This document shows positions 1 to 54,043 of a stretch of 64,000 nt of DNA, piece after piece. Source of the DNA: Desulfobacteraceae bacterium (GTDB taxonomy: Bacteria; Desulfobacterota; Desulfobacteria; Desulfobacterales; Desulfosalsimonadaceae); assembly GCA_011389515.1 (NCBI GenBank), contig JAABUA010000009.1, forward strand, positions 1 to 64,000, in the 5' to 3' direction. Under the pieces are notes generated by a model. That model did not search any database and was not told the origin of the DNA. It saw only the letters and a program-made list of their open reading frames with translations. The number at the start of each line of letters is the position of its first letter. Within the stretch, counting starts at the first letter, position 1. A program made the position numbers and the translations under genes.

Positions 1-303
1 CACCATTACGTCAATGGCGATTTCCAGTCTCGTTCCAAGGGGTTTTCCCTTTACTTTCTTCTCGACCTCCATGAGTTTGCAGCGAAGCCCTTCGTTGATG
101 TCCATGATCACTGCCTCGTAGAGATCCCCCTTTTCCCCCCAATGATAATACAGGGTCGAAATATCGATCTTTACGGCTTTTGCGATCATTCGGGTCGTTG
201 TACCGTGAAAACCGTATTGCCCGAAGATTTTCCTGGCCTCCAGCAGGATCTTCGCCTTCATGGAATCTGGATTCTGCTTCGCTTTTTCAAGTGCTGTCGC
301 CAT
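1..303 (-). CDS. TetR/AcrR family transcriptional regulator, N-terminal part (cut by window start)
   Basis: The 101 visible codons form a TetR-type DNA-binding domain: ATG at 303-301, then a helix with AKILLEARKIFGQYGFHGTT, the recognition-helix region TRMIAKAVKIDISTLYYHWG and the EKGDLYEAV stretch typical of the family. The C-terminal ligand-binding half lies outside the window. The gene sits 60 bp downstream of the CaiB/BaiF gene on the same strand and is probably cotranscribed with it. TetR proteins beside acyl-CoA clusters commonly repress them and respond to an acyl-CoA, so control of the divergent beta-oxidation-like genes is a reasonable inference that the sequence does not prove. Confidence 0.88.
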   Translation of the reverse strand, partial: MATALEKAKQNPDSMKAKILLEARKIFGQYGFHGTTTRMIAKAVKIDISTLYYHWGEKGDLYEAVIMDINEGLRCKLMEVEKKVKGKPLGTRLEIAIDVMV

Positions 304-363
304 AGAAAAATACCTGTTGTTTATCATTCACAAATAATAAGGGTAGCCCCTAGTGTCCTTGGG

Positions 364-1509
364 TCAAATGACGCCTTCTTTTTCAAAAGCGTCCACTTCC
401 GTCTCCGAATATCCCATTTGCTTCAGAATCTGCCGGGTGTCCTGCCCGAATGCCGGGGGAACGGTTCGAACGCTGCCCGGTGTCCGGGAAAGCTTGATGG
501 GCGTTCCAATGGCCTGAAAAGGTTTTTTCCCCGGTCTTTCAATTTCCGCAACCATTTCCCTGGTTTTAAATAAGGGGTCTTCAAAGGCTTCCGACATTGT
601 TTTTACGGGCGCCCAGCAGAAATCTTTTCCGGCAAGCGCCTTTTCCCAGTGGGACAGCGGGTATTCTTTGAATCGATCCCTGAAATAGCCGATAATTTCC
701 AGCCGTATTTCATCATCATACTGACAGTCAATATATTGCGGGACGTCAAAAAATTCGCACAATACTTTCCAGAAGCGATTTTCCACAGCACCGACAGATA
801 AATACCGCCCATCTTTGGTTTCATAGGTATTATAGCAGGCGTAACGGTGGGACAGAAAGAAATCGGAACGTTTCGGCACCTGTCCGGACAGCTGTTTCAT
901 AATGAAAGCAAGGGTCAGCAGACTGAAACTGCCATCGGTCATCGAAATATCGATATACTGTCCCTTGCCGGTTCTCTGCCTTTCTGCCATTGCCATCAGT
1001 ATGCCGATAACGGCATTCATTCCGCCGCCGGCCATGTCTGCGATCTGAATGCCGGGAATAACAGGTGTACCACCAATTTCACCGATCAAATCGAGAACGC
1101 CGGCAACGCTTAAATAATTCACATCGTGGCCGGCAACATCCCGGTAAGGACCCGTCTGTCCATAACCGCTAATAGAGCAATAGATGATCCCCGGATTGAC
1201 CGTTCGAAGGGCTTCGTAATCCACGCCCAACCGTTTTGTTACCCCGGGGCGGAAACCCTCGAGCACGACATCCGCGGATGCAGCAAGCTTGAAAAAAACA
1301 TCACGCCCTTTATCCGATTTGAGGTTGAGTGTCATATGCTGCTTGTTCCGGTTGACACCGCTGTCACCTAATGCTTCCCCGGCGAATCGTCTGTCTTCTA
1401 TGGCAATCACCCTTGCACCGTGATCCGCAAGGATCATCGATGCATACGGACCGGGAAGCAGCCTGGACAAATCCAGAACCGTTATGCCGTCCAATGCGCC
1501 TTTCGTCAT
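364..1509 (-). CDS. CaiB/BaiF CoA-transferase family protein, alpha-methylacyl-CoA racemase-like
   Basis: A 381-residue family III CoA-transferase-fold protein, the usual length for the family. It opens with GALDGITVLDLSRLLPGPY and contains GHDVNYLSVAGVL near residue 127 and ADMAGGG near 157. In alpha-methylacyl-CoA racemases these two motifs carry the catalytic His and Asp; here they are H128 and D158. That favours racemase or epimerase chemistry on 2-methyl-branched acyl-CoA over formyl-CoA transfer, although CoA transferases share the Asp. The start at 1509 is chosen because TCGGAGGC lies just upstream; a longer open frame to 1578 has no such site. The gene diverges from the hydratase-dehydrogenase-SCP2 gene and precedes the TetR gene. 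Racemase versus CoA transferase cannot be settled from sequence alone. Confidence 0.85.
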   Translation of the reverse strand: MTKGALDGITVLDLSRLLPGPYASMILADHGARVIAIEDRRFAGEALGDSGVNRNKQHMTLNLKSDKGRDVFFKLAASADVVLEGFRPGVTKRLGVDYEALRTVNPGIIYCSISGYGQTGPYRDVAGHDVNYLSVAGVLDLIGEIGGTPVIPGIQIADMAGGGMNAVIGILMAMAERQRTGKGQYIDISMTDGSFSLLTLAFIMKQLSGQVPKRSDFFLSHRYACYNTYETKDGRYLSVGAVENRFWKVLCEFFDVPQYIDCQYDDEIRLEIIGYFRDRFKEYPLSHWEKALAGKDFCWAPVKTMSEAFEDPLFKTREMVAEIERPGKKPFQAIGTPIKLSRTPGSVRTVPPAFGQDTRQILKQMGYSETEVDAFEKEGVI

Positions 1510-1696
1510 TTTGCCTCCGATTATGATCGTACGTTTGATCTGCCTCTCCTGTCGGCCAACCGGATGACTGCCCGACATATCCTTATAAAATTAACACGCA
1601 GCACCCGATTTGTCCATCAATTGTTTCCATCACCCGATCGGATATAAAACTGCGCCAGTAAAAACCTGAAAAAATCATCCATACTGCAAAAACTCT

Positions 1697-1725
1697 TTGA
1701 CAGAACAATGAAAAATCCATATGCT
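1697..1725 (+). promoter_or_regulatory. sigma70-type promoter for the MFE-2-like gene
   Basis: TTGACA at 1697-1702, a 17-bp spacer and TATGCT at 1720-1725. It lies in the 333-bp divergent region (1510-1842). An in-frame ATG at 1708 falls inside the spacer, which argues against that codon as the start and for the RBS-linked ATG at 1843. An imperfect inverted repeat, GTGAA at 1756-1760 facing CATTTCAC at 1777-1784, lies just downstream where a repressor could block transcription. I see no other gene in this gap. Confidence 0.55.
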
Positions 1726-1842
1726 TTTTTCCATCATTTGCTGGAAGTTTTTGATGTGAACAAATGTATTGGAAATCATTTCACTTTTCATGAGAACAAA
1801 CCGTCACATTACTCAATTACTTTTCACGTAAGGAGGCGAACA

Positions 1843-3963
1843 ATGGCACTGAACCTGGAAGCCGCAGGTCAGAAGATCGGCCCTGTCAAAAAGGATTACA
1901 ACTGGAAGGACGTAATTCTTTACGCCCTTGGTGTGGGAGCGGGATTTGACGAAATCGAATATGTCTACGAAAAAGACCTGAAAGTCATTCCCAGCTTCGG
2001 AATCGCGGCGATCTTCGAATTTCTGTCCCATATTGCCGCAAAGGCAGAAGTCAATTATGCCGGAATCCTCCATGGCGAGCAGGAACTGATTTATCACAGT
2101 CCGATCCCCATAGAGGGGACCATGATCACGGAAGGAAAAATCACCGACTTCTATGACATGGGCAAAGACAAGGGCGCCATCGTCGTGGGGGAAAGCATCA
2201 CCTGCGATGAAAAGGGGAAGCGCCTGTTTACCAGCGTGATTCGCCTGTTCAGCAGGCTCGACGGCGGGTTCGGGGGAAAGCCCGCGCCGGCAGTAAAAGT
2301 GGAAATTCCGGACCGCGCCCCTGATTTTGAAGACGACGCGCAACCGTCACCGGATCAGCCGCTTTTGTACCGTTTATCCGGCGATGTGTTCCAACTCCAC
2401 GTAGATCCCGAATTTGCCAAAATGTCCGGTTTTCAGATGCCCATCATGCACGGGCTCTGCACCCACGGTTACGCCTGCCGGTCATTGATAAAAAACCTCG
2501 TTTCGGGGGAACCCGAAAGAGTTCATCGCTATTCCTGCCGGTTTTCAAAACCGTTGTACCCTGGCGACCCCATAAAAACACAAATCTGGAAGGTCGGGGA
2601 TGGAAAAGCCGTTTGGCGGACCATCAACGCCAAAACCGGTGATGTCGTCATTACCAACGGGATTTTCGAATACGGCGACATCCCCAAAGATGAGATCCGT
2701 TTCGATGGAAAAGTGGCCATTGTCACCGGTGCCGGCGGAGGGTTGGGACGCATTTATGCAAAAGAGCTTGCCGGGCGGGGCGCTAGTGTCGTCGTAAACG
2801 ACCTGGGCGGCGCCAGGGACGGCTCCGGCGGAGGATCTGCAACGCCGGCCCAGAAGGTCGTCGATGAGATCATTGCCGACGGCGGCACCGCTATTGCAAA
2901 CTACGACAACGTGGCAACCCCGGAAGGCGGGGAAAACATCGTTAAGACCGCTATCGACACATATGGCACCGTAGACATTCTAATCAACAACGCGGGTATA
3001 TTGAGAGACAAGAGCTTCATCAAGATGGAGCCGGAAAACTGGAAAGCGGTTCTCGATGTGCATTTAAACGGGGCATACCATGTGACCCGTCCAGCATTTG
3101 CCATCATGCGGGAAAAAGGATACGGCCGCATCATCATGACCACATCCGCTGCCGGCCTTTACGGCAACTTCGGGCAGACCAACTATTCCGCGGCGAAAAT
3201 GGGCCTTGTGGGATTGATGAACACCCTGAAACTGGAAGGGAAAAAATACAATATCAAGGTCAACACCATTGCCCCGCTTGCCGCATCCCGCCTGACCGAG
3301 GACATCATGCCGCCGGAGCTTTTTGAAAAATCCAAGCCGGAATATGTCTCCCCGCTGGTTCTTTTCCTGTGCTCCGACCGGTGCGAAGCTTCCGGAAACA
3401 TATACAACGCCGGATTGGGCGTCTATAACAGGGCTGCCGTTATTACCGGAGCGGGTACCGTCATCGGCGATGCCGCGTCATGGCCCACTGTTGAAGACGT
3501 ATCTGCCGGTTTTGACAAAATCAGCAGCCTGAAGAACGGCAAGGAGCACGAAGAGTTGAATGCCGTTATCGGTGATGTCATCAACGCGTTTTCATCCCCC
3601 CAGAAAGGGGACGTCACCGCTTCTGACGATACTTCGGGTAAATTCACCGATGTGGCCGCCGTATTTGATGCCATGGCCGGCGCTTTCCAGCCCGATGCGG
3701 CAAAGGGAGTAAATGTGATCTTTCAGTACGACATCAGCGGCGGAAACGGCGGAAACTGGTTCTGCGAAATATCCGATGGCACATGCACCGTCAGTGCCGG
3801 ATCACATGACAAAGCGACATGCACCCTTGCCATGTCGGATACGGATTTTCTGGCAATGATGAAGGGGGAACTTCCAGCTATGCAGGCCTATACGTCCGGA
3901 AAATTGAAAATCAGCGGCGATATTATGAAATCCCAGCTGATTGAAAAACTTTTCAAGCTGTAA
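1843..3963 (+). CDS. Multifunctional enzyme: (R)-hydratase (MaoC/hydratase 2) - SDR 3-hydroxyacyl-CoA dehydrogenase - SCP2 domain
   Basis: A 706-residue fusion resembling eukaryotic peroxisomal multifunctional enzyme type 2. Residues 1-285 form a double hot-dog hydratase with the hydratase-2 core YRLSGD...H (D181, H186) and the GFQMPIMHGLCTHG strand. Residues 286-545 are an SDR with TGAGGGLG (295-302), NNAG (382-385), S435, Y448 and K452. Residues 600-706 are an SCP2 sterol-carrier domain. Human MFE-2 runs dehydrogenase-hydratase-SCP2, whereas here the hydratase comes first. The expected product is hydration of 2-enoyl-CoA to (3R)-hydroxyacyl-CoA, then oxidation to 3-oxoacyl-CoA. AAGGAGG precedes the ATG at 1843. 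Oddity: the canonical NP of the D-x-NP-L-H motif reads FQ here, which may tune or weaken hydratase activity. The SDR-SCP2 half is closely similar to that of the next gene, implying duplication. Confidence 0.9.
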   Translation: MALNLEAAGQKIGPVKKDYNWKDVILYALGVGAGFDEIEYVYEKDLKVIPSFGIAAIFEFLSHIAAKAEVNYAGILHGEQELIYHSPIPIEGTMITEGKITDFYDMGKDKGAIVVGESITCDEKGKRLFTSVIRLFSRLDGGFGGKPAPAVKVEIPDRAPDFEDDAQPSPDQPLLYRLSGDVFQLHVDPEFAKMSGFQMPIMHGLCTHGYACRSLIKNLVSGEPERVHRYSCRFSKPLYPGDPIKTQIWKVGDGKAVWRTINAKTGDVVITNGIFEYGDIPKDEIRFDGKVAIVTGAGGGLGRIYAKELAGRGASVVVNDLGGARDGSGGGSATPAQKVVDEIIADGGTAIANYDNVATPEGGENIVKTAIDTYGTVDILINNAGILRDKSFIKMEPENWKAVLDVHLNGAYHVTRPAFAIMREKGYGRIIMTTSAAGLYGNFGQTNYSAAKMGLVGLMNTLKLEGKKYNIKVNTIAPLAASRLTEDIMPPELFEKSKPEYVSPLVLFLCSDRCEASGNIYNAGLGVYNRAAVITGAGTVIGDAASWPTVEDVSAGFDKISSLKNGKEHEELNAVIGDVINAFSSPQKGDVTASDDTSGKFTDVAAVFDAMAGAFQPDAAKGVNVIFQYDISGGNGGNWFCEISDGTCTVSAGSHDKATCTLAMSDTDFLAMMKGELPAMQAYTSGKLKISGDIMKSQLIEKLFKL

Positions 3964-41287: not shown

Positions 41288-41310
41288 AACGGGCCTGGGA
41301 AAAGAATTGA

Positions 41311-41460
41311 TGAACTTGTAAAAAGTCTGATTTCAGATGGCGCCGCAAAAAGTTCAAGATCAAGGCTTGCGCAATTTCGAAGAATGCAGCGTACTTAGCC
41401 GTACGTGAAATTCTGAGAAATTGCGCGTAACGCAGTTATTGGACTTTTACGGTGCCATCA
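41311..41460 (+). repeat. Palindromic element A, copy 3 (inside the liv operon)
   Basis: 150 bp between livG and livF. The outer end is TGAACTTGTAAAAAGTCTGA. The inner inverted ends are GATGGCGCCGCAAAAAGTTC and, from the right, GATGGCACCGTAAAAGTCC. The centre is GCGTACTTAGCCGTACG. It is almost identical to copy 4 at 47403-47553, in opposite orientation. It has no ORF. As RNA it could form a long hairpin within the operon transcript. Confidence 0.8.
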
Positions 41461-46419: not shown

Positions 46420-46490
46420 TTGGTATCGATCGAAGGGCCATGTTCCCCTGCTTTGGGGTGTTTTTTCAAAAAACGTAAGGAGGCGCGGTT

Positions 46491-47402
46491 ATGACCGGAA
46501 AATTTTACGATGTGATCATTATGGGTGCAGGGCCGGCGGGACTGCAGGCAGCCATTCACGCGGCCCGCAGGAAGGCATCGGTCCTGGTGATCGGACAGAG
46601 CAAAAAAAGCAGCGCGTATAACGCCCACATCGAGAATTTCTGCTGCACCGCAACGCAGTCGGGTGCGGAAATGCTTGAAATCGGAATCGCCAAAGCCGAG
46701 GAGTCGGGGGCCGAATTTCTGGACACCGAGGTTATGGCGCTGAATGCCGATAACGGTCATTACACCGTTGAAACAGCCCGCGGGGAGGCGCTCAAGGCAT
46801 ATGCCCTGATTTTCGCAATGGGAATCTCGCGCAACAAGTTGAACCTTGCCGGTGAAAAGGATCTCGTTGGAAGGGGTGTAAGCTATTGCGTGGACTGCGA
46901 CGGCCCGCTGTTCAAAAAAGAACCGGTAGCGGTTGTCGGATGCGGCAGCGCTGCGGCCGGTGCGGCCCTGACCATGCTTTTTTATGCCAACGAGGTCCAC
47001 CTTGTCTGCGAAAAGCTGGATATGGATTCCTTTCTTGCCGAAAAAATCCGCGAAAGCGGTGTGGTGGTTCACGAAGGAAGGAAGATCACCCAAATAAAAG
47101 GGGATGATGCGGTATCCGGTCTCGTGCTCGACGACGGGGAAGAACTTGCCGTAACCGGCGTTTTCATCGAACTGGGTGCAAAAGGGGCAATTGATTTTGC
47201 CGCCCGGCTTGGCATTCTTTTAGACGACACCATGAAATACATCGCCGTCAATAAAAAACAGGAAACCAACCTGACCGGGATTTATGCCGCAGGGGATATT
47301 TGCGGCCCGCCCTGGCAGGTGGCAAAATCCGTTGGCGAGGGCTGCGTTGCCGGCATTGAAGCCGCTGCTTATGCGATCAAACGAAAACAGGAAGGCAGGT
47401 AG
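46491..47402 (+). CDS. Thioredoxin reductase-like flavoprotein, atypical NADPH site
   Basis: A 303-residue two-domain flavoprotein. The FAD motif is IIMGAGPAGLQAAIHAARR (9-27). The redox Cys pair is YCVDCDGPL (C133, C136). The second FAD motif is TGIYAAGDICGPPWQVAKSVGEG. The NADPH-domain motif is aberrant: VVGCGSAAAGAAL replaces GGGxSAxEEA, and VHLVCEKLDMD replaces the VxLIHRRxxFRA stretch whose arginines hold the 2'-phosphate. A ferredoxin or different reductant is therefore possible, as in ferredoxin-linked flavin thioredoxin reductases. It is preceded by AAGGAGGCGCGG, and a palindromic element begins immediately after the stop. Confidence 0.82.
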   Translation: MTGKFYDVIIMGAGPAGLQAAIHAARRKASVLVIGQSKKSSAYNAHIENFCCTATQSGAEMLEIGIAKAEESGAEFLDTEVMALNADNGHYTVETARGEALKAYALIFAMGISRNKLNLAGEKDLVGRGVSYCVDCDGPLFKKEPVAVVGCGSAAAGAALTMLFYANEVHLVCEKLDMDSFLAEKIRESGVVVHEGRKITQIKGDDAVSGLVLDDGEELAVTGVFIELGAKGAIDFAARLGILLDDTMKYIAVNKKQETNLTGIYAAGDICGPPWQVAKSVGEGCVAGIEAAAYAIKRKQEGR

Positions 47403-47553
47403 GATGGCACCGTAAAAAGTCCAATATCTGCGTTACGCGCAATTTCTCAGAATTTTACGTACGGCTAAGTACGCTGCATTCTTCGAAATCGCGCAAGCCT
47501 TGATCTTGAACTTATTACGGCGCCATCTGAAATCAGACTTTTTACGAGTTTAT
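47403..47553 (-). repeat. Palindromic element A, copy 4
   Basis: Nearly the exact reverse complement of copy 3. It begins GATGGCACCGTAAAAAGTCC directly after the TAG of the flavoprotein gene and ends with TCAGACTTTTTACGAGTTTA. It shares 47403-47729 (no gene) with element C copy 2. Confidence 0.8.
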
Positions 47554-47585
47554 CAGGTAGGCGAATCACAGAAATTCAGGAATAA

Positions 47586-48970: not shown

Positions 48971-51076
48971 CTATAGCTCAAGACGCCGCAACAATTGCGC
49001 GTTTATCGCAACAATTACAGTGGAAGCGGACATCAGTATCGCACCCGCGGCAGGAGCCAAAAGAAATCCCGCCCATGCAAGAACACCTGCGGCAAGAGGT
49101 ATGGCAATGATATTATATCCTGCAGCCCACCATAGATTTTGAACCATTTTCCGGTACGTTGCACGGCTCAGCACCACTATTCTGGAAACATCGCGCGGGT
49201 CGCTTCGAACCAGCACAACGTCACCTGCCTCCACCGCCACATCGGTTCCCGCACCAATGGCGATGCCGATATCGGCGGTCACCAGCGCCGGTGCATCATT
49301 TACACCGTCTCCGACCATTGCGACACGCGTGTTGCCGTGCTGCAATTCCTTGATCTTGTCTGCCTTGTCTTCCGGCAGAACTTCGGCAAAAACAGTGTCA
49401 ATGCCGAGTTCTTTTGCGACGCTGTCGGCAACCGCCTTGGAATCTCCCGTAAGCATCGCCACCTTCAGGCCCTGCTCGTGAAGCCGCTTTATTGCTTCTG
49501 CAGATTCAGGACGCACGGCATCCGCAATGGCAAATACCGCCAGTACGCGATTGTCCTCTATCAGATAGACGGCTGCTTGACCATTTTCGGAGAAACGTTC
49601 GGCTGCATTGGCGATATCCTCCGACGGTTTCACCTCAAGTTTTCGCAGCAATGCCGGCCCGCCGACCTTGAGGCTTCGCCCCTCAACCGTTGCTTCCACT
49701 CCCTTTCCAGGAATGGCGTTAAAATCTTCCGCACCTTTTACCTCGATGTCCTTTTCCCGTGCGCTTTCGGTCAGTGCCCGGCCGATGGGATGCTCTGAAT
49801 CGTATTCAACGGATGCAGCCAAGCGGATGGATTCGTTTTCATCCATGTCATCCGCCATAACGGAATCCACCACCCGGTGCTCCCCCAAGGTCAGCGTGCC
49901 GGTCTTGTCGAAAACAATAACTTCAAGATTTCTCGCCTCTTCGAGCCCCCGGCGGTCGCGCACAAGAAGTCCGTTGCGCGCCCCTATTGTCGTGGATATG
50001 GCAATGACCAGCGGGATAGCAAGTCCTAATGCATGCGGGCATGCAATGACAAGTACCGTCACCAACCGCGAAATGGTAAAATCGAGCGTGGCGCCGAATG
50101 CAAGCCATGCGACAAATGTCAATCCGCCTGCCCCGATCGCAACCAGCGTGAGAAAAAATGCCGCCCGGTCAGCAAGCGCCTGGGACGCTGAGCGCGATCC
50201 CTGGGCCTCTTCAACCAGACGCATGATGCCGGCCAGTGCTGTCTTATCGCCGGTGCCGGACACCTCCACCCGCAGAGAACCGTCTCCATTGGCGGTACCG
50301 GCAATCACATTGTCTCCCGCGGTTTTATCAACCGGCTTGGATTCCCCGGTAATCATCGATTCATTGACCGCGCTTTTGCCCTCCTTGACCACACCGTCAA
50401 CAGGAATGCTCCCGCCGGGTCGGATCAGAACAATATCCCCTTCCTGAAGCTGATCAACCGGCACCTCTTCGGTACGGTCACCGTCGAGCAGACGCTCCGC
50501 GGTATCCGGAAGAAGTTTGGCCAACTCCTTCAGCGCTCCCTGGGCCTGAAAAATGGATCGCATCTCGATCCAGTGGCCGAGCAGCATGATGGTCACAAGG
50601 CTTGCCAGCTCCCACCAGAGGGCATGTCCGTCATACCCCAGCGTTACCGCACCACTGTAAATAAATGCAACGCTTATGGCCAGGGCGATAAGCGTCATCA
50701 TTCCCGGCTTCCGGTCGGAGAGTTCGTGGTATGCCCCTTTCAGAAAAACCCATCCGCCGTATAAAAAAACAAGCGTGCCGAAAAGGGCCGGAATCATGGA
50801 TGATCCCGGAAACACAGGGGCCTTGTATCCAAACCATTCCTGCAGCATCGGCTCCCATATCAGCGCGGGTATCGAGAGCGCCAGGCAAACCCAGAAACGG
50901 GTACGAAACATTTCCACGCTATGGCCTTCATGCTTATCATGGCCGCTGTGTTTTTCATGATCACCGTGACCGGCGTGACCGCTTTTTTCCTTTTCTGTCC
51001 CGCCGGAACGATCGCCATGCTCCTTCGTGTCGTGATCAGCGGAATTCTTTTGATCTTTCGAGTTAGATGAATGCAT
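48971..51076 (-). CDS. copB: Copper-type P1B-ATPase (CopB-like, CPH motif) with His-rich N-terminus
   Basis: A 701-residue heavy-metal exporter. The first 55 residues are loaded with His (HAGHGDHEKHSGHDKHEGH) as a metal buffer; no CxxC heavy-metal domain is present. The transmembrane metal site is VIACPHALGL (CPH, 346-348), the CopB class. The phosphorylation site is DKTGT with D390, the actuator loop is TGES, and the C-terminal ATP region has GDGVNDAPAL. CopB-type pumps export Cu(I)/Ag(I) or Cu(II). GGAGGCGT precedes the ATG. Only 38 bp separate it from the korB stop on the same strand, so read-through from the kor operon is possible. Confidence 0.9.
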   Translation of the reverse strand: MHSSNSKDQKNSADHDTKEHGDRSGGTEKEKSGHAGHGDHEKHSGHDKHEGHSVEMFRTRFWVCLALSIPALIWEPMLQEWFGYKAPVFPGSSMIPALFGTLVFLYGGWVFLKGAYHELSDRKPGMMTLIALAISVAFIYSGAVTLGYDGHALWWELASLVTIMLLGHWIEMRSIFQAQGALKELAKLLPDTAERLLDGDRTEEVPVDQLQEGDIVLIRPGGSIPVDGVVKEGKSAVNESMITGESKPVDKTAGDNVIAGTANGDGSLRVEVSGTGDKTALAGIMRLVEEAQGSRSASQALADRAAFFLTLVAIGAGGLTFVAWLAFGATLDFTISRLVTVLVIACPHALGLAIPLVIAISTTIGARNGLLVRDRRGLEEARNLEVIVFDKTGTLTLGEHRVVDSVMADDMDENESIRLAASVEYDSEHPIGRALTESAREKDIEVKGAEDFNAIPGKGVEATVEGRSLKVGGPALLRKLEVKPSEDIANAAERFSENGQAAVYLIEDNRVLAVFAIADAVRPESAEAIKRLHEQGLKVAMLTGDSKAVADSVAKELGIDTVFAEVLPEDKADKIKELQHGNTRVAMVGDGVNDAPALVTADIGIAIGAGTDVAVEAGDVVLVRSDPRDVSRIVVLSRATYRKMVQNLWWAAGYNIIAIPLAAGVLAWAGFLLAPAAGAILMSASTVIVAINAQLLRRLEL

Positions 51077-51114: not shown

Positions 51115-51969
51115 CTAAAGGTCATCCAGAACCGCCTGTACGGCGGCCGGATCAAAAGATCGATGAAAAAGCGGACCATGTTCCAGCGTCTTGATCCGCT
51201 TTGTAAAGGGGATTGTCTGCTTTTGATAGATCAGGCCGATCGGGATGCGATCCTCCCCTTGCAGTGACAGATCCATTGCCCCGTGCCAGTCATCAGCACG
51301 GTGCTTCGTTTCGTCCAGCAGATAGACCCGCTCATTATAGTATTCGTATGTGTTGACGGGATTGTAGGAAACACAGACCTGCAGGATATCGATCATACTG
51401 AACCCCGGATATGCAATCGCTTTTTGAATCAGGCGGCTCAAATGATCCGTTTCACCGCAGTATCCCCTCGCGATAAACCCAACCCCCTGGGACAATGCCA
51501 AAGGAATCGGTTTCAATGGGTCGCTCAGCGCACCGAAAGGCTGGGCCTTGGTTGAAAATCCGTACTCAGCCGTCGGCGATGCCTGCCCCTTGGTCAACCC
51601 ATACACACGATTGTCGTGGATCAACAGGGTGACATCGATATTCCGGCGCATGGCTGCCAGCAGATGGTTTCCCCCTTCACCGTAGCAGTCACCGTCTCCC
51701 ATATGAACCAGGATGGGAAGATCATGGTTGGCAAGACGAGCACCCGTGGCCACCGGCAGGGCGCGGCCATGAAGCCCGTGAAAGAAATTGCAATTCAGAA
51801 AGTGGGGTGTTTTGGCAGCCTGACCGATACCGGATATGAGCAATACTTTTTCCGGCGGGATATCCATGTGGGCAAGTGCGCTTTTTACGGCATTCAACAC
51901 ACCGAAATTGCCGCATCCCGGGCACCACTTGTTTTCAAAGTCATTGTGATACAGCGATACATCCGTCAT
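51115..51969 (-). CDS. korB: 2-oxoacid:ferredoxin oxidoreductase beta subunit
   Basis: A 284-residue TPP-binding subunit. The N-terminus has KWCPGCGNFGVL (Cys ligands of the 4Fe-4S cluster) and the TPP/Mg motif HMGDGDCYGEGGNHLLAAMRR. VYGLTKGQASPT follows, and the third cluster Cys is in CVSYNPVNTYEYY. Its ATG overlaps the korA stop by four bases. It would oxidise 2-oxoglutarate (or another 2-oxoacid) with CoA and reduce ferredoxin. Substrate choice between 2-oxoglutarate and branched or other 2-oxoacids cannot be read from these motifs with certainty. Confidence 0.9.
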   Translation of the reverse strand: MTDVSLYHNDFENKWCPGCGNFGVLNAVKSALAHMDIPPEKVLLISGIGQAAKTPHFLNCNFFHGLHGRALPVATGARLANHDLPILVHMGDGDCYGEGGNHLLAAMRRNIDVTLLIHDNRVYGLTKGQASPTAEYGFSTKAQPFGALSDPLKPIPLALSQGVGFIARGYCGETDHLSRLIQKAIAYPGFSMIDILQVCVSYNPVNTYEYYNERVYLLDETKHRADDWHGAMDLSLQGEDRIPIGLIYQKQTIPFTKRIKTLEHGPLFHRSFDPAAVQAVLDDL

Positions 51970-53684
51970 TGGCCACCCTCCATATACTGCTTTGTCCGGG
52001 CAACGACATGGCCAGGCTTCATGGGCCGGCCATCGTATTGAACAATTGCCCCATCGGCCTGCAATCCGGTATGCCGCCGGATCAATCCACCCAGTTGCGA
52101 CGATGCATTGAGTTCAACGGTAAGAAAACCCTCGCATCCGGAAAGTGCGTCCATTGCCGGGGCCGTTGGAAAAGGCCAGATATCGGAAAAAAAGACCGCT
52201 CCGACATCGTGCTTTTCCTTTCTCAGTCGGTTGACCGCCTCCCGGACCACGCCGTCGGTGGAACCCCATGTCACCAGCAGCAAACGGCTGTCACCGAACA
52301 GGATATCCGGACCGTTCATTTCTTCGGCCATTTTCAGCATTTTTTTGTGCCGTTTGTCTACCTGGCCGTTTCTGTCGGCAATCGTCTCGCTCAGGTGACC
52401 CTCCTCGGTATGATCGTTTCCCGTCACCATGACACGCGCCCTGCCCGCTCCCGGAACCGCCCTGGGAGAAACGCCCGACTCGCTATATGCAAAACGCTTA
52501 TACGATGAAGGATCAGGCATATCCGCATCGGATACCAGAAACCGTTCGATCTTTTCCGGGACGCTCCATTTTTCGCGGGTGATGGAGAGGGAATCGTTAA
52601 AATACTGGTCAACAAGGACAATAACCGGCACCTGGTATTTTTCGGCCAAGTGAAAGCTGCGGATCATGGTTTCAAAGGCTTCGTCGAGGGTGCGGGGGGC
52701 GAATACAAAGCGTGGAAACTCATCCTGCGCCGCATGAATGACAAAAAACAGGTCGCCCTGCGCCGTACGTGTGGGCAGTCCCGTGGCCGGACCCGGGCGC
52801 TGGGCATTGATCACGACAACAGGCGTTTCCGTTATGCCGGCAAGGCCGAGCCCCTCGACCATGAGGGAAAATCCACCCCCGGAGGTTGCGGTCATGGCGC
52901 GGACACCCCCAAATGAAGCGCCGATCGCCATGTTAATGGCGGCGATCTCGTCTTCGGCTTGTTCCACGACCAGTGGGAAACGGTCCATGAAACCCGCCAG
53001 ATAAACCAGGATCTCCGTGGCAGGAGACATGGGATAAAAGCTGGCGACCCGGCAATCGGCTGCCAGTGCGCCAAGCGCCAGGGCCCTGGCACCGGAGAGC
53101 ATTTTACCCGCAGGTTTTCGGTCGGGCCACTTAAAATGCCAGTCAAAGTCGGTATTTGCTACCGCATCCCTGCCCATTTGAATGGCTTTCAGATTGTTTT
53201 CGAGCACGGACTTTGATTTTCCGCCGAAATGCGATTCAATGACCTTGACCACCAGTTCCGCAGGAGCACCGAGCATTTCAAGGGCGGCACCTGCAGCCAC
53301 GGTATTGGTCATAATCTTTCCACCGGCCTTTTCTGCCAGGTTTGTAAATTTGACATCCACGACATGTAAGGCTTCATCGCTGCCGCCGGCGCCGTCTTCC
53401 TCCATCAGTATACGGCCGCCCTCTGCGAGTTCGCCGGCATGGATATCAAAGGTTTCCCTGTTTAAGGCCACCAGCAGGTGGATTTTATCATCCGCGGCAA
53501 CAACAGGTTCGTCGCTGATACGGAGCTGCATGAAGCTGTGCCCGCCGCGAATGCGTGATTCAAAATCATTGATGACCATGAGATACAGTCCGGCCCGGTG
53601 GCAGACACTGGCCAGCAGATCCCCTACCGTCTGTATCCCCTGGCCTGCGGCCCCCCCGATGGTAACGGTTACGTCGATGTCCAT
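51966..53684 (-). CDS. korA: 2-oxoacid:ferredoxin oxidoreductase gamma-alpha fusion subunit
   Basis: A 572-residue fusion. The gamma domain (1-190) starts with TVTIGGAAGQGIQTVGDLLA and INDFESRIRGGHSFMQLRIS. The alpha domain (about 205-560) has YPMSPATEILVYLA, EQAEDEIAAINMAIGASFGG and QRPGPATGLPTRTAQGDL. This gamma-alpha plus beta arrangement is the KorAB-type enzyme. The ATG at 53684 is the start (GAGGTTGGAA upstream); a GTG/TTG-type extension to 53744 would run into the preceding gene. It lies in the order rubrerythrin, acyl-CoA dehydrogenase, 102-residue protein, korA, korB. Confidence 0.91.
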   Translation of the reverse strand: MDIDVTVTIGGAAGQGIQTVGDLLASVCHRAGLYLMVINDFESRIRGGHSFMQLRISDEPVVAADDKIHLLVALNRETFDIHAGELAEGGRILMEEDGAGGSDEALHVVDVKFTNLAEKAGGKIMTNTVAAGAALEMLGAPAELVVKVIESHFGGKSKSVLENNLKAIQMGRDAVANTDFDWHFKWPDRKPAGKMLSGARALALGALAADCRVASFYPMSPATEILVYLAGFMDRFPLVVEQAEDEIAAINMAIGASFGGVRAMTATSGGGFSLMVEGLGLAGITETPVVVINAQRPGPATGLPTRTAQGDLFFVIHAAQDEFPRFVFAPRTLDEAFETMIRSFHLAEKYQVPVIVLVDQYFNDSLSITREKWSVPEKIERFLVSDADMPDPSSYKRFAYSESGVSPRAVPGAGRARVMVTGNDHTEEGHLSETIADRNGQVDKRHKKMLKMAEEMNGPDILFGDSRLLLVTWGSTDGVVREAVNRLRKEKHDVGAVFFSDIWPFPTAPAMDALSGCEGFLTVELNASSQLGGLIRRHTGLQADGAIVQYDGRPMKPGHVVARTKQYMEGGQ

Positions 53685-53734
53685 TTCCAACCTCAATATT
53701 GAATTGCGATCATCCGGCCGGTTGCTGCATGCCG

Positions 53735-54043
53735 TTACAGCCATGCCGTTGTGTCGGGCACCGCAACCCCGAGTCGGTCGGCATTTTTGCTCAATGTTTC
53801 AGACAACCGGGCCATGCTTTCGTCGATGTTCTTTTTATTGGGAGACCAGTCTGCCGGGCATTGATTCTTCAACTCATCCAGGCCTGTTTCGATGTTGTCG
53901 ACCAGTGACATGAGCTGTTTTGCTGCTTCCGTATGGGCCGGATCCGGCATTTTTTCCGCCTTGGCAATCACGTCATACAGCCCTGCCTTTAATCCGATCA
54001 TCCGCTTATATGTCTCTTCACAGTAGTCTTTCACATCCGTCAT
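53735..54043 (-). CDS. Hypothetical helical protein, 102 aa
   Basis: Family not recognised. The protein is acidic-to-neutral and predicted helical throughout, with KDYCEETYKRMIGLKAGLYDV and MSLVDNIETGLDELKNQC, and resembles a small adapter or four-helix bundle. Two Cys (C8, C62) are not in a metal pattern. The ATG is preceded by GGAGGAAAATAC. It lies between the acyl-CoA dehydrogenase gene (34 bp) and korA (about 50 bp) in the same orientation, so it is probably a component of that operon. Confidence 0.7.
   Translation of the reverse strand: MTDVKDYCEETYKRMIGLKAGLYDVIAKAEKMPDPAHTEAAKQLMSLVDNIETGLDELKNQCPADWSPNKKNIDESMARLSETLSKNADRLGVAVPDTTAWL

Follow-up and report, generated by a model that had tools for sequence, protein, structure and literature searches.

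A thioredoxin reductase-like flavoprotein encoded in the window (the whole 64,000-nucleotide stretch of Desulfobacteraceae DNA analyzed here) belongs to a family in which all aligned members have lost the NADPH-binding motifs, and its nearest relatives in phylogenetic trees and model superpositions are reductases that are independent of NAD(P)H. Our overall reading, to which we assign a probability of about one half, is that Desulfobacterota harbor a large, old NAD(P)H-independent lineage to which the TRi enzymes form a divergent sister; that its members usually represent an isolated second reductase; and that, in one related genus (g51 of family f42), the enzyme has taken over the position of the NADPH enzyme in the trxA-trxB operon, so that electrons reach thioredoxin directly from low-potential carriers (ferredoxin or flavodoxin). 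Many enzymes have their redox state set by thioredoxin, and what a cell senses is determined by the electron pool on which thioredoxin draws. The larger sister family, its trxA-coupled members, and the genomes lacking a canonical NADPH reductase therein are clean systems in which the donor could be found. The literature searched yielded papers on TRi and FFTR and no description of the Desulfobacterota family or of its coupling to trxA; in one study (PMC10880999), reductases other than the NADPH type are described for some phyla, and these may already include non-NTR copies in this phylum.

The open reading frame (Table 1) starts with ATG and has codon-position GC values of 0.62/0.42/0.61; a scan for sigma-70-like promoters returned one site, no excess over shuffled sequences (mean 1.7). 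The best Pfam match of the product is the general fold model PF07992 (131.8 bits), and the score against the NCBIfam equivalog for thioredoxin reductase, TIGR01292, is 203.5 bits, below the cut-off of 343.45. The translation contains GAGPAG, AAGD (residues 266–269), and CVDC, in agreement with the preliminary description, which had held that the redox pair and the FAD motifs are intact. That description had also given the NADPH elements GGGxSAxEEA and HRRxxxR as missing, and indeed GCGSAAAGAA and CEKLDMD, respectively, occupy these positions. The first and third glycines of the second Rossmann motif are still present in the window protein (GxGxxA), which counts against our preferred explanation.

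Table 1. Positions in the window of the reductase gene and of the sequence features discussed in the text
Feature	Position	Strand	Basis
ORF, NAD(P)H-independent-type thioredoxin reductase, 303 aa	46491..47402, stop included	+	translation, Pfam, orthologues
AAGGAGG, likely ribosome-binding site	46477..46483	+	sequence; 7 nt 5' of ATG
FAD-binding GAGPAG, residues 12-17	46524..46541	+	G12, G14, G17 in 138/138
Vicinal Cys51-Cys52 after E-N-F	46641..46646	+	family-enriched, variable: C51 96/138, C52 97/138
Redox-active pair C133-V-D-C136	46887..46898	+	both Cys 138/138
Degenerate pyrophosphate-binding motif GCGSAAAG replacing GGGxxAxE, residues 150-157	46938..46961	+	alignment
CEKL, residues 173-176, at HRRD 2'-phosphate motif position	47007..47018	+	alignment
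GDICGPPWQVAK, residues 268-279, FAD-side motif: short GD-Q spacer, aromatic before Gln, Lys at Q+3	47292..47327	+	alignment

The gene is present in all six genomes of the window's genus (the five other copies being 71–80% identical), in 79 of 291 genomes of an order sample, and in 70 of 395 genomes of a phylum sample (E <= 1e-50 in both). Scanning of contigs recovered 12 loci in deltaproteobacterial MAGs at 52–80% identity, followed by a gap down to 33–36%, where a Patescibacterium, a Lokiarchaeon, and Archaeoglobus appear; these three retain GG(G/S) and, except for the Patescibacterium, HRR, and are placed elsewhere in the tree. Among the 334 records found in a plasmid search for close relatives, all were below 60% identity, with the best row at 35%. 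The family alignment comprises 138 of the 140 located members (G007 is fragmentary and G335 is interrupted by a stop codon, and both were omitted) and excludes matches from the genus, order, and phylum searches for which no locus was fetched; one family set used 68 distinct sequences of 76 members, 22 weaker or partial loci having been set aside.

Neither HRR nor G(G/A/S)GxxAxE occurs in any of the 138 aligned members, whereas HRR and GGG[DN][TS]A are found in 30/30 NADPH-type reductases from the same order that served as the control; the third glycine of the second Rossmann motif is kept in 48/138 members and is a glutamate in 67/138. Loss of the NADPH-binding motifs is a family-wide trait. 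Chance or a sequencing error as its cause was discarded, given the genus orthologues at 71–80% identity and the losses in 138/138. The invariant residues are C133, C136, D137, H23, Q19, N49, E227, Q276, K279, and C285. On the FAD side, all 138 members have a 6-residue GD-to-Q spacer and Lys at Q+3, and 125 have an aromatic residue (W/F/Y) before the Gln, as opposed to the 7-residue spacer, Arg/Lys before Gln, and Thr/Ser at Q+3 of the NADPH enzymes (30/30). The G[KR]G that precedes CxxC, a thioredoxin-contact motif according to PMC5627308, was detected in 130 of the 136 members that fit the search pattern (138 searched). An essential second redox or metal centre formed by Cys51, Cys52, and Cys271 was considered and rejected (96, 97, and 85 of 138, respectively); the losses of these residues across members are not strictly joint.

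In a PDB search by sequence, the window protein matches Desulfovibrio vulgaris TRi best (DvTRi; 5nii, 155 bits); the clostridial FFTR 6gna scores 120 bits and the cyanobacterial 5j60 scores 107, with several NADPH enzymes ranking between these and 5nii. Pairwise identity is 34% to TRi, 34% to CaFFTR (6gna), and 32% to the NADPH reductase of the same genome, and a PDB search with the family profile puts the NADPH enzyme 4zn0 (215 bits) level with 5nii (214 bits), another point against the preferred explanation. Because these values are so close, phylogenetic trees were built. In the main tree, which is unrooted and consists of 60 rows without the cyanobacterial FFTR sequences, the family joins TRi with support of 99/95, and these two join the clostridial FFTR with support of 96/91; across from this group are the NADPH enzymes together with archaeal TrxRs and the remaining reductase types. 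To guard against rows being drawn to each other by a shared absence of NADPH residues, the tree was repeated on the FAD domain alone, yielding 98/90 for the family with TRi and 94/85, just below the strict support mark, when the clostridial FFTR is added. Holding the family with the NTRs was rejected (p-AU 0.022), and a grouping of the family with FFTR to the exclusion of TRi was not (p-AU 0.194). The family and TRi are sister groups in the main tree, the former not being nested inside the latter; the tree places the family beside TRi and, less firmly, with the clostridial FFTR. This disagrees with the published view (PMC5627308) that a duplication of the NADPH enzyme within Desulfovibrionales gave rise to TRi, since holding TRi with the NTRs was rejected as well (p-AU 0.0055). 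Searching the 395 phylum genomes with DvTRi produced 13 matches, namely, 3 true TRi at 64–66% identity and 10 at 38–42%, all of which coincide with the places of family members.

Structural modeling, which had been proposed in the preliminary description, groups the window protein with the NAD(P)H-independent reductases, 5nii being the closest. The AlphaFold2 model, built from 53 aligned family members (pLDDT 89.8, lower around residues 41–60), was aligned with 999 chains, and the five entries with the highest Z are all NAD(P)H-independent: 5nii (Z 33.2, 3.3 A over 290), 5j60 (Z 28.0, 7.2 A), 6xtf (Z 27.9, 7.2 A), 6gna (Z 27.4, 5.2 A), and 6gnc (Z 26.4, 7.5 A). The NADPH enzymes superimpose on the model with Z of about 24–26 at 13.7–15.9 A. 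With Foldseek alone, 3f8p comes first by E-value but at 15.6 A, and 5nii is at rank 11 at 3.3 A. The control model, that of the genome's own NTR (30 sequences, pLDDT 84.1), matches closed-form NADPH enzymes at 2.6–3.6 A, and the five open entries are absent from the 50 rows of this comparison; because the control matches closed-form enzymes, the predicted domain arrangement follows the protein rather than the method. The window protein would be expected to adopt an open conformation, as predicted by a model that is a single chain from a 53-sequence alignment, which we count against the preferred explanation.

Comparison with characterized enzymes brings out both shared and distinct features. 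DvTRi, as described in PMC5627308, similarly retains FAD and CxxC, lacks the NADPH motifs, carries the GRG/GKG thioredoxin contact, and is encoded by a stand-alone gene beside a separate NADPH reductase; its domain arrangement is the same as that in the predicted model of the family. Nevertheless, it is only about 34% identical to the window protein, in which CEKL and G..SAA stand in place of the TRi signatures TQ/NGK and GEGxxAxN. The same paper states that TQ/NGK replaces HRRD in all TRi; TQGK or TNGK is found in 0/29 family representatives, and TQGK in 4/4 TRi rows. Lys279 and the aromatic residue before Gln are likewise absent from TRi, the 6-residue spacer being the only part of the motif in common, and the family is far more common than TRi (79/291 order genomes) and coupled to trxA in one genus. 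CaFFTR (6gna/6gnc/6gnd) also lacks the NADPH motifs and assumes the open conformation (predicted, in the case of the family), and two Clostridium FFTRs share with the family the spacer, the aromatic residue (Tyr), and the Lys of the FAD-side motif; trxA-trxB operons with FFTR-type enzymes occur in Clostridioides, according to PMC10880999. CaFFTR differs in its length of 288 aa with a shorter disulfide domain, in CATC versus the CVDC of the window protein, and in the residues at the lost motifs. The motif does not extend to all enzymes of this kind: in an FFTR-like protein encoded on a Subdoligranulum plasmid, the aromatic residue and the Lys are replaced by Leu and Asn. Cyanobacterial GvFFTR (5j60; 6xtf with ferredoxin) resembles the family in the open conformation (again, predicted for the family) and in the lack of an NADPH motif, but it has a C-terminal tail with W315 stacking on the FAD of the partner subunit, whereas the window protein contains no Trp after residue 275. 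NTR/TrxB (TIGR01292; L006 in the same genome) has the same fold, FAD motifs, CxxC, and thioredoxin contact, and the family differs from it by the absence of GGGxxAxE and HRRxxxR, the FAD-side motif, and the predicted domain arrangement. Most likely, the family works like TRi and FFTR while lacking the strict TRi signature, with FFTR membership unproven.

In the window, the gene stands alone, preceded by a Na+/H+ exchanger gene and followed by one for a glucose/sorbosone dehydrogenase, each on the opposite strand, and the canonical trxA (WCGPC) of this genome directly precedes the NADPH reductase on contig 82. In genus g51, a codirectional WCGPC trxA ends 0–1 bp before the family gene in 15/15 genomes (the order search gave 16 matches in g51, one of which, the contig-end fragment G301, was left out). 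No TIGR01292 match exceeds the cut-off in these 15 genomes; 7 of them have no match at E <= 1e-30 other than the family gene, and the remaining 8 have further matches, all without HRR. In g51, the family enzyme takes the usual place of the NADPH enzyme beside trxA. Outside g51, 77 of 80 family-bearing genomes possess a TIGR01292 match over the cut-off, and the fetched stretch includes a thioredoxin gene, about 1.2 kb away on the other strand, for 1 of 125 located members. The coupling to trxA involves 15 of 140 located members, in one genus only, and this limited spread counts against the preferred explanation. Given the trxA coupling and the lack of a canonical NADPH reductase in g51, thioredoxin is very probably the substrate, and the simplest reading would be of a family enzyme that acts on thioredoxin and is able to stand in for its NADPH-dependent counterpart.

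Two composite proteins were observed during these searches. One g51 genome (L174) encodes, at 1486-2673 (-), a 395-aa fusion of a CPFC-bearing part with a reductase part lacking HRR, which is one of the further matches mentioned above; judging from the sequences, we take the CPFC part to be glutaredoxin-like and the product of the adjoining gene, at 246-1430 (-), to resemble a flavodiiron protein. The other, encoded on contig 101 of the window's own genome (L008, 766-2430; 554 aa), joins an N-terminal CPYC part to a C-terminal thioredoxin-reductase part, in which GGGDSAAT is present and HWQD is found in place of HRRD; similar proteins are present in many relatives.

The enzyme is, with high confidence, independent of NAD(P)H. 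Use of NADPH or NADH is unlikely in view of the motif loss and of the behavior of DvTRi, which, according to PMC5627308, does not react with either nucleotide and reduces Trx1. The possibility that NADH is still bound, only the 2'-phosphate site (HRR) having been lost, appears improbable to us: GxGxxA in the window protein, with the third glycine in 48/138 members, and the NADH-type reductase DvTR3 of Desulfovibrio (PMC5627308) are in its favor, but GGGxxAxE, which is highly conserved in NADH-type TR3 in the same account, is gone in 138/138 members of the family, with Glu as the third residue in 67, and in both the tree and the model the family groups with enzymes that do without either nucleotide. 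Less probable still is a reductase driven by F420H2, similar to the DFTR of Methanocaldococcus, in which comparable loss of the NADPH motifs is described in PMC5627308. Matches to CofD occur in 23/68 family-bearing genomes, although the model also matches an E. coli control and is unspecific; at E <= 1e-5, CofD is absent from the window's genome (92% complete), from 12/15 genomes with the trxA operon, and from 45/68 family-bearing genomes.

Two further alternatives concern the partners of the enzyme. It might reduce another disulfide, such as that of a small thiol, a persulfide, or a dedicated partner protein, as could be suggested by the lack of a thioredoxin gene in the fetched stretch for 124/125 non-g51 members, including that in the window, and by the adjacency of the genome's own trxA to the NADPH reductase. 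The coupling to a WCGPC trxA in 15/15 cases where the NADPH reductase is absent, the conservation of thioredoxin-contact residues, and the reduction of Trx1 by TRi although the gene of the latter is isolated (PMC5627308) render this doubtful. We also give little weight to another low-potential protein partner, specific to sulfate reducers, or a membrane component or cytochrome as the source of electrons in place of ferredoxin or flavodoxin. What reduces TRi is left open in PMC5627308, and K279 (138/138), C271 (85/138), and aromatic residue 275 near the FAD might form a docking site; however, no conserved neighbor gene indicates such a partner, and FFTRs, the kin with a known protein donor, use ferredoxin.

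Ferredoxin or flavodoxin is the donor that we consider probable. The preliminary description had suggested that ferredoxin or another donor may be used instead of NADPH, and the replacement of NADPH is borne out by the missing elements, the inertness of DvTRi, and the agreement of the tree with the model; the link to FFTR on which the suggestion drew is less secure, the nearest relative being TRi and the family not a proven FFTR. The TRi authors, in their 2017 paper (PMC5627308), left the donor open, favoring flavodoxin and arguing against ferredoxin from an unlike reductant pocket. Ferredoxin is the donor of the FFTRs of Clostridia and Gloeobacter, the Gloeobacter enzyme having an FAD potential low enough to favor it (PMC12796991, PMC9025218, PMC8469568, PMC10880999). 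The [aromatic]-Q-x-x-K motif common to the family and CaFFTR, with a presumed role in donor interaction, leans toward ferredoxin, and so does the joining of the family with the clostridial FFTR in the trees (96/91; FAD domain, 94/85).

It seems fairly likely to us that the gene product works as a homodimeric FAD enzyme that no longer binds NADPH, takes its electrons from a low-potential carrier, and reduces thioredoxin. By analogy with TRi and FFTR, from which the dimerization, the donor, the catalytic steps, and the stress role are all carried over, a low-potential one-electron carrier (ferredoxin or flavodoxin) would reduce the FAD of the open enzyme in two steps; the disulfide domain, formerly the NADPH domain, would then swing in, allowing the flavin to reduce the C133-C136 disulfide, and swing out again, whereupon C136 would attack the disulfide of thioredoxin. 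In the window's organism, where the family enzyme coexists with an ordinary NADPH reductase paired with a separate trxA, thioredoxin could be reduced from two electron pools, and a role under oxygen or disulfide stress may be envisaged, as proposed for Desulfovibrio TRi.

No gene for a donor is linked to the family gene, a further point against the preferred explanation, and no conserved operon partner was found outside g51; the neighbors vary by lineage. Beta and alpha/gamma subunits of a 2-oxoacid:ferredoxin oxidoreductase are encoded 4 kb from the reductase, at 51115-53744 (-) of the window; this complex is a possible source of reduced ferredoxin and is not a conserved neighbor among the clustered neighborhoods listed. 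The gene for a heavy-metal P-type ATPase (E1-E2 ATPase) lies at 48971-51076 (-), with homologues in 5/31 clustered neighborhoods, of which three belong to the genus of the window. In three genomes of family f24 (L035, L065, and L078), a 217-aa gene type (MSDxPxGAILQRDKETYAIVP...) is located directly downstream of the reductase, its product presumably resembling a small siroheme sulfite/nitrite reductase-type protein, and in four genomes (L100-L103), a downstream gene encodes a protein of about 160–170 aa that we take to resemble tRNA adenosine deaminase. Finally, an interspersed, partly self-complementary repeat of about 155 bp is present in the window at 47400-47560 and 41308-41459; as a 161-base query, it gave 45 matches in the genome (E <= 1e-5), many of them 90–97% identical and a few being opposite-strand matches of the same place.
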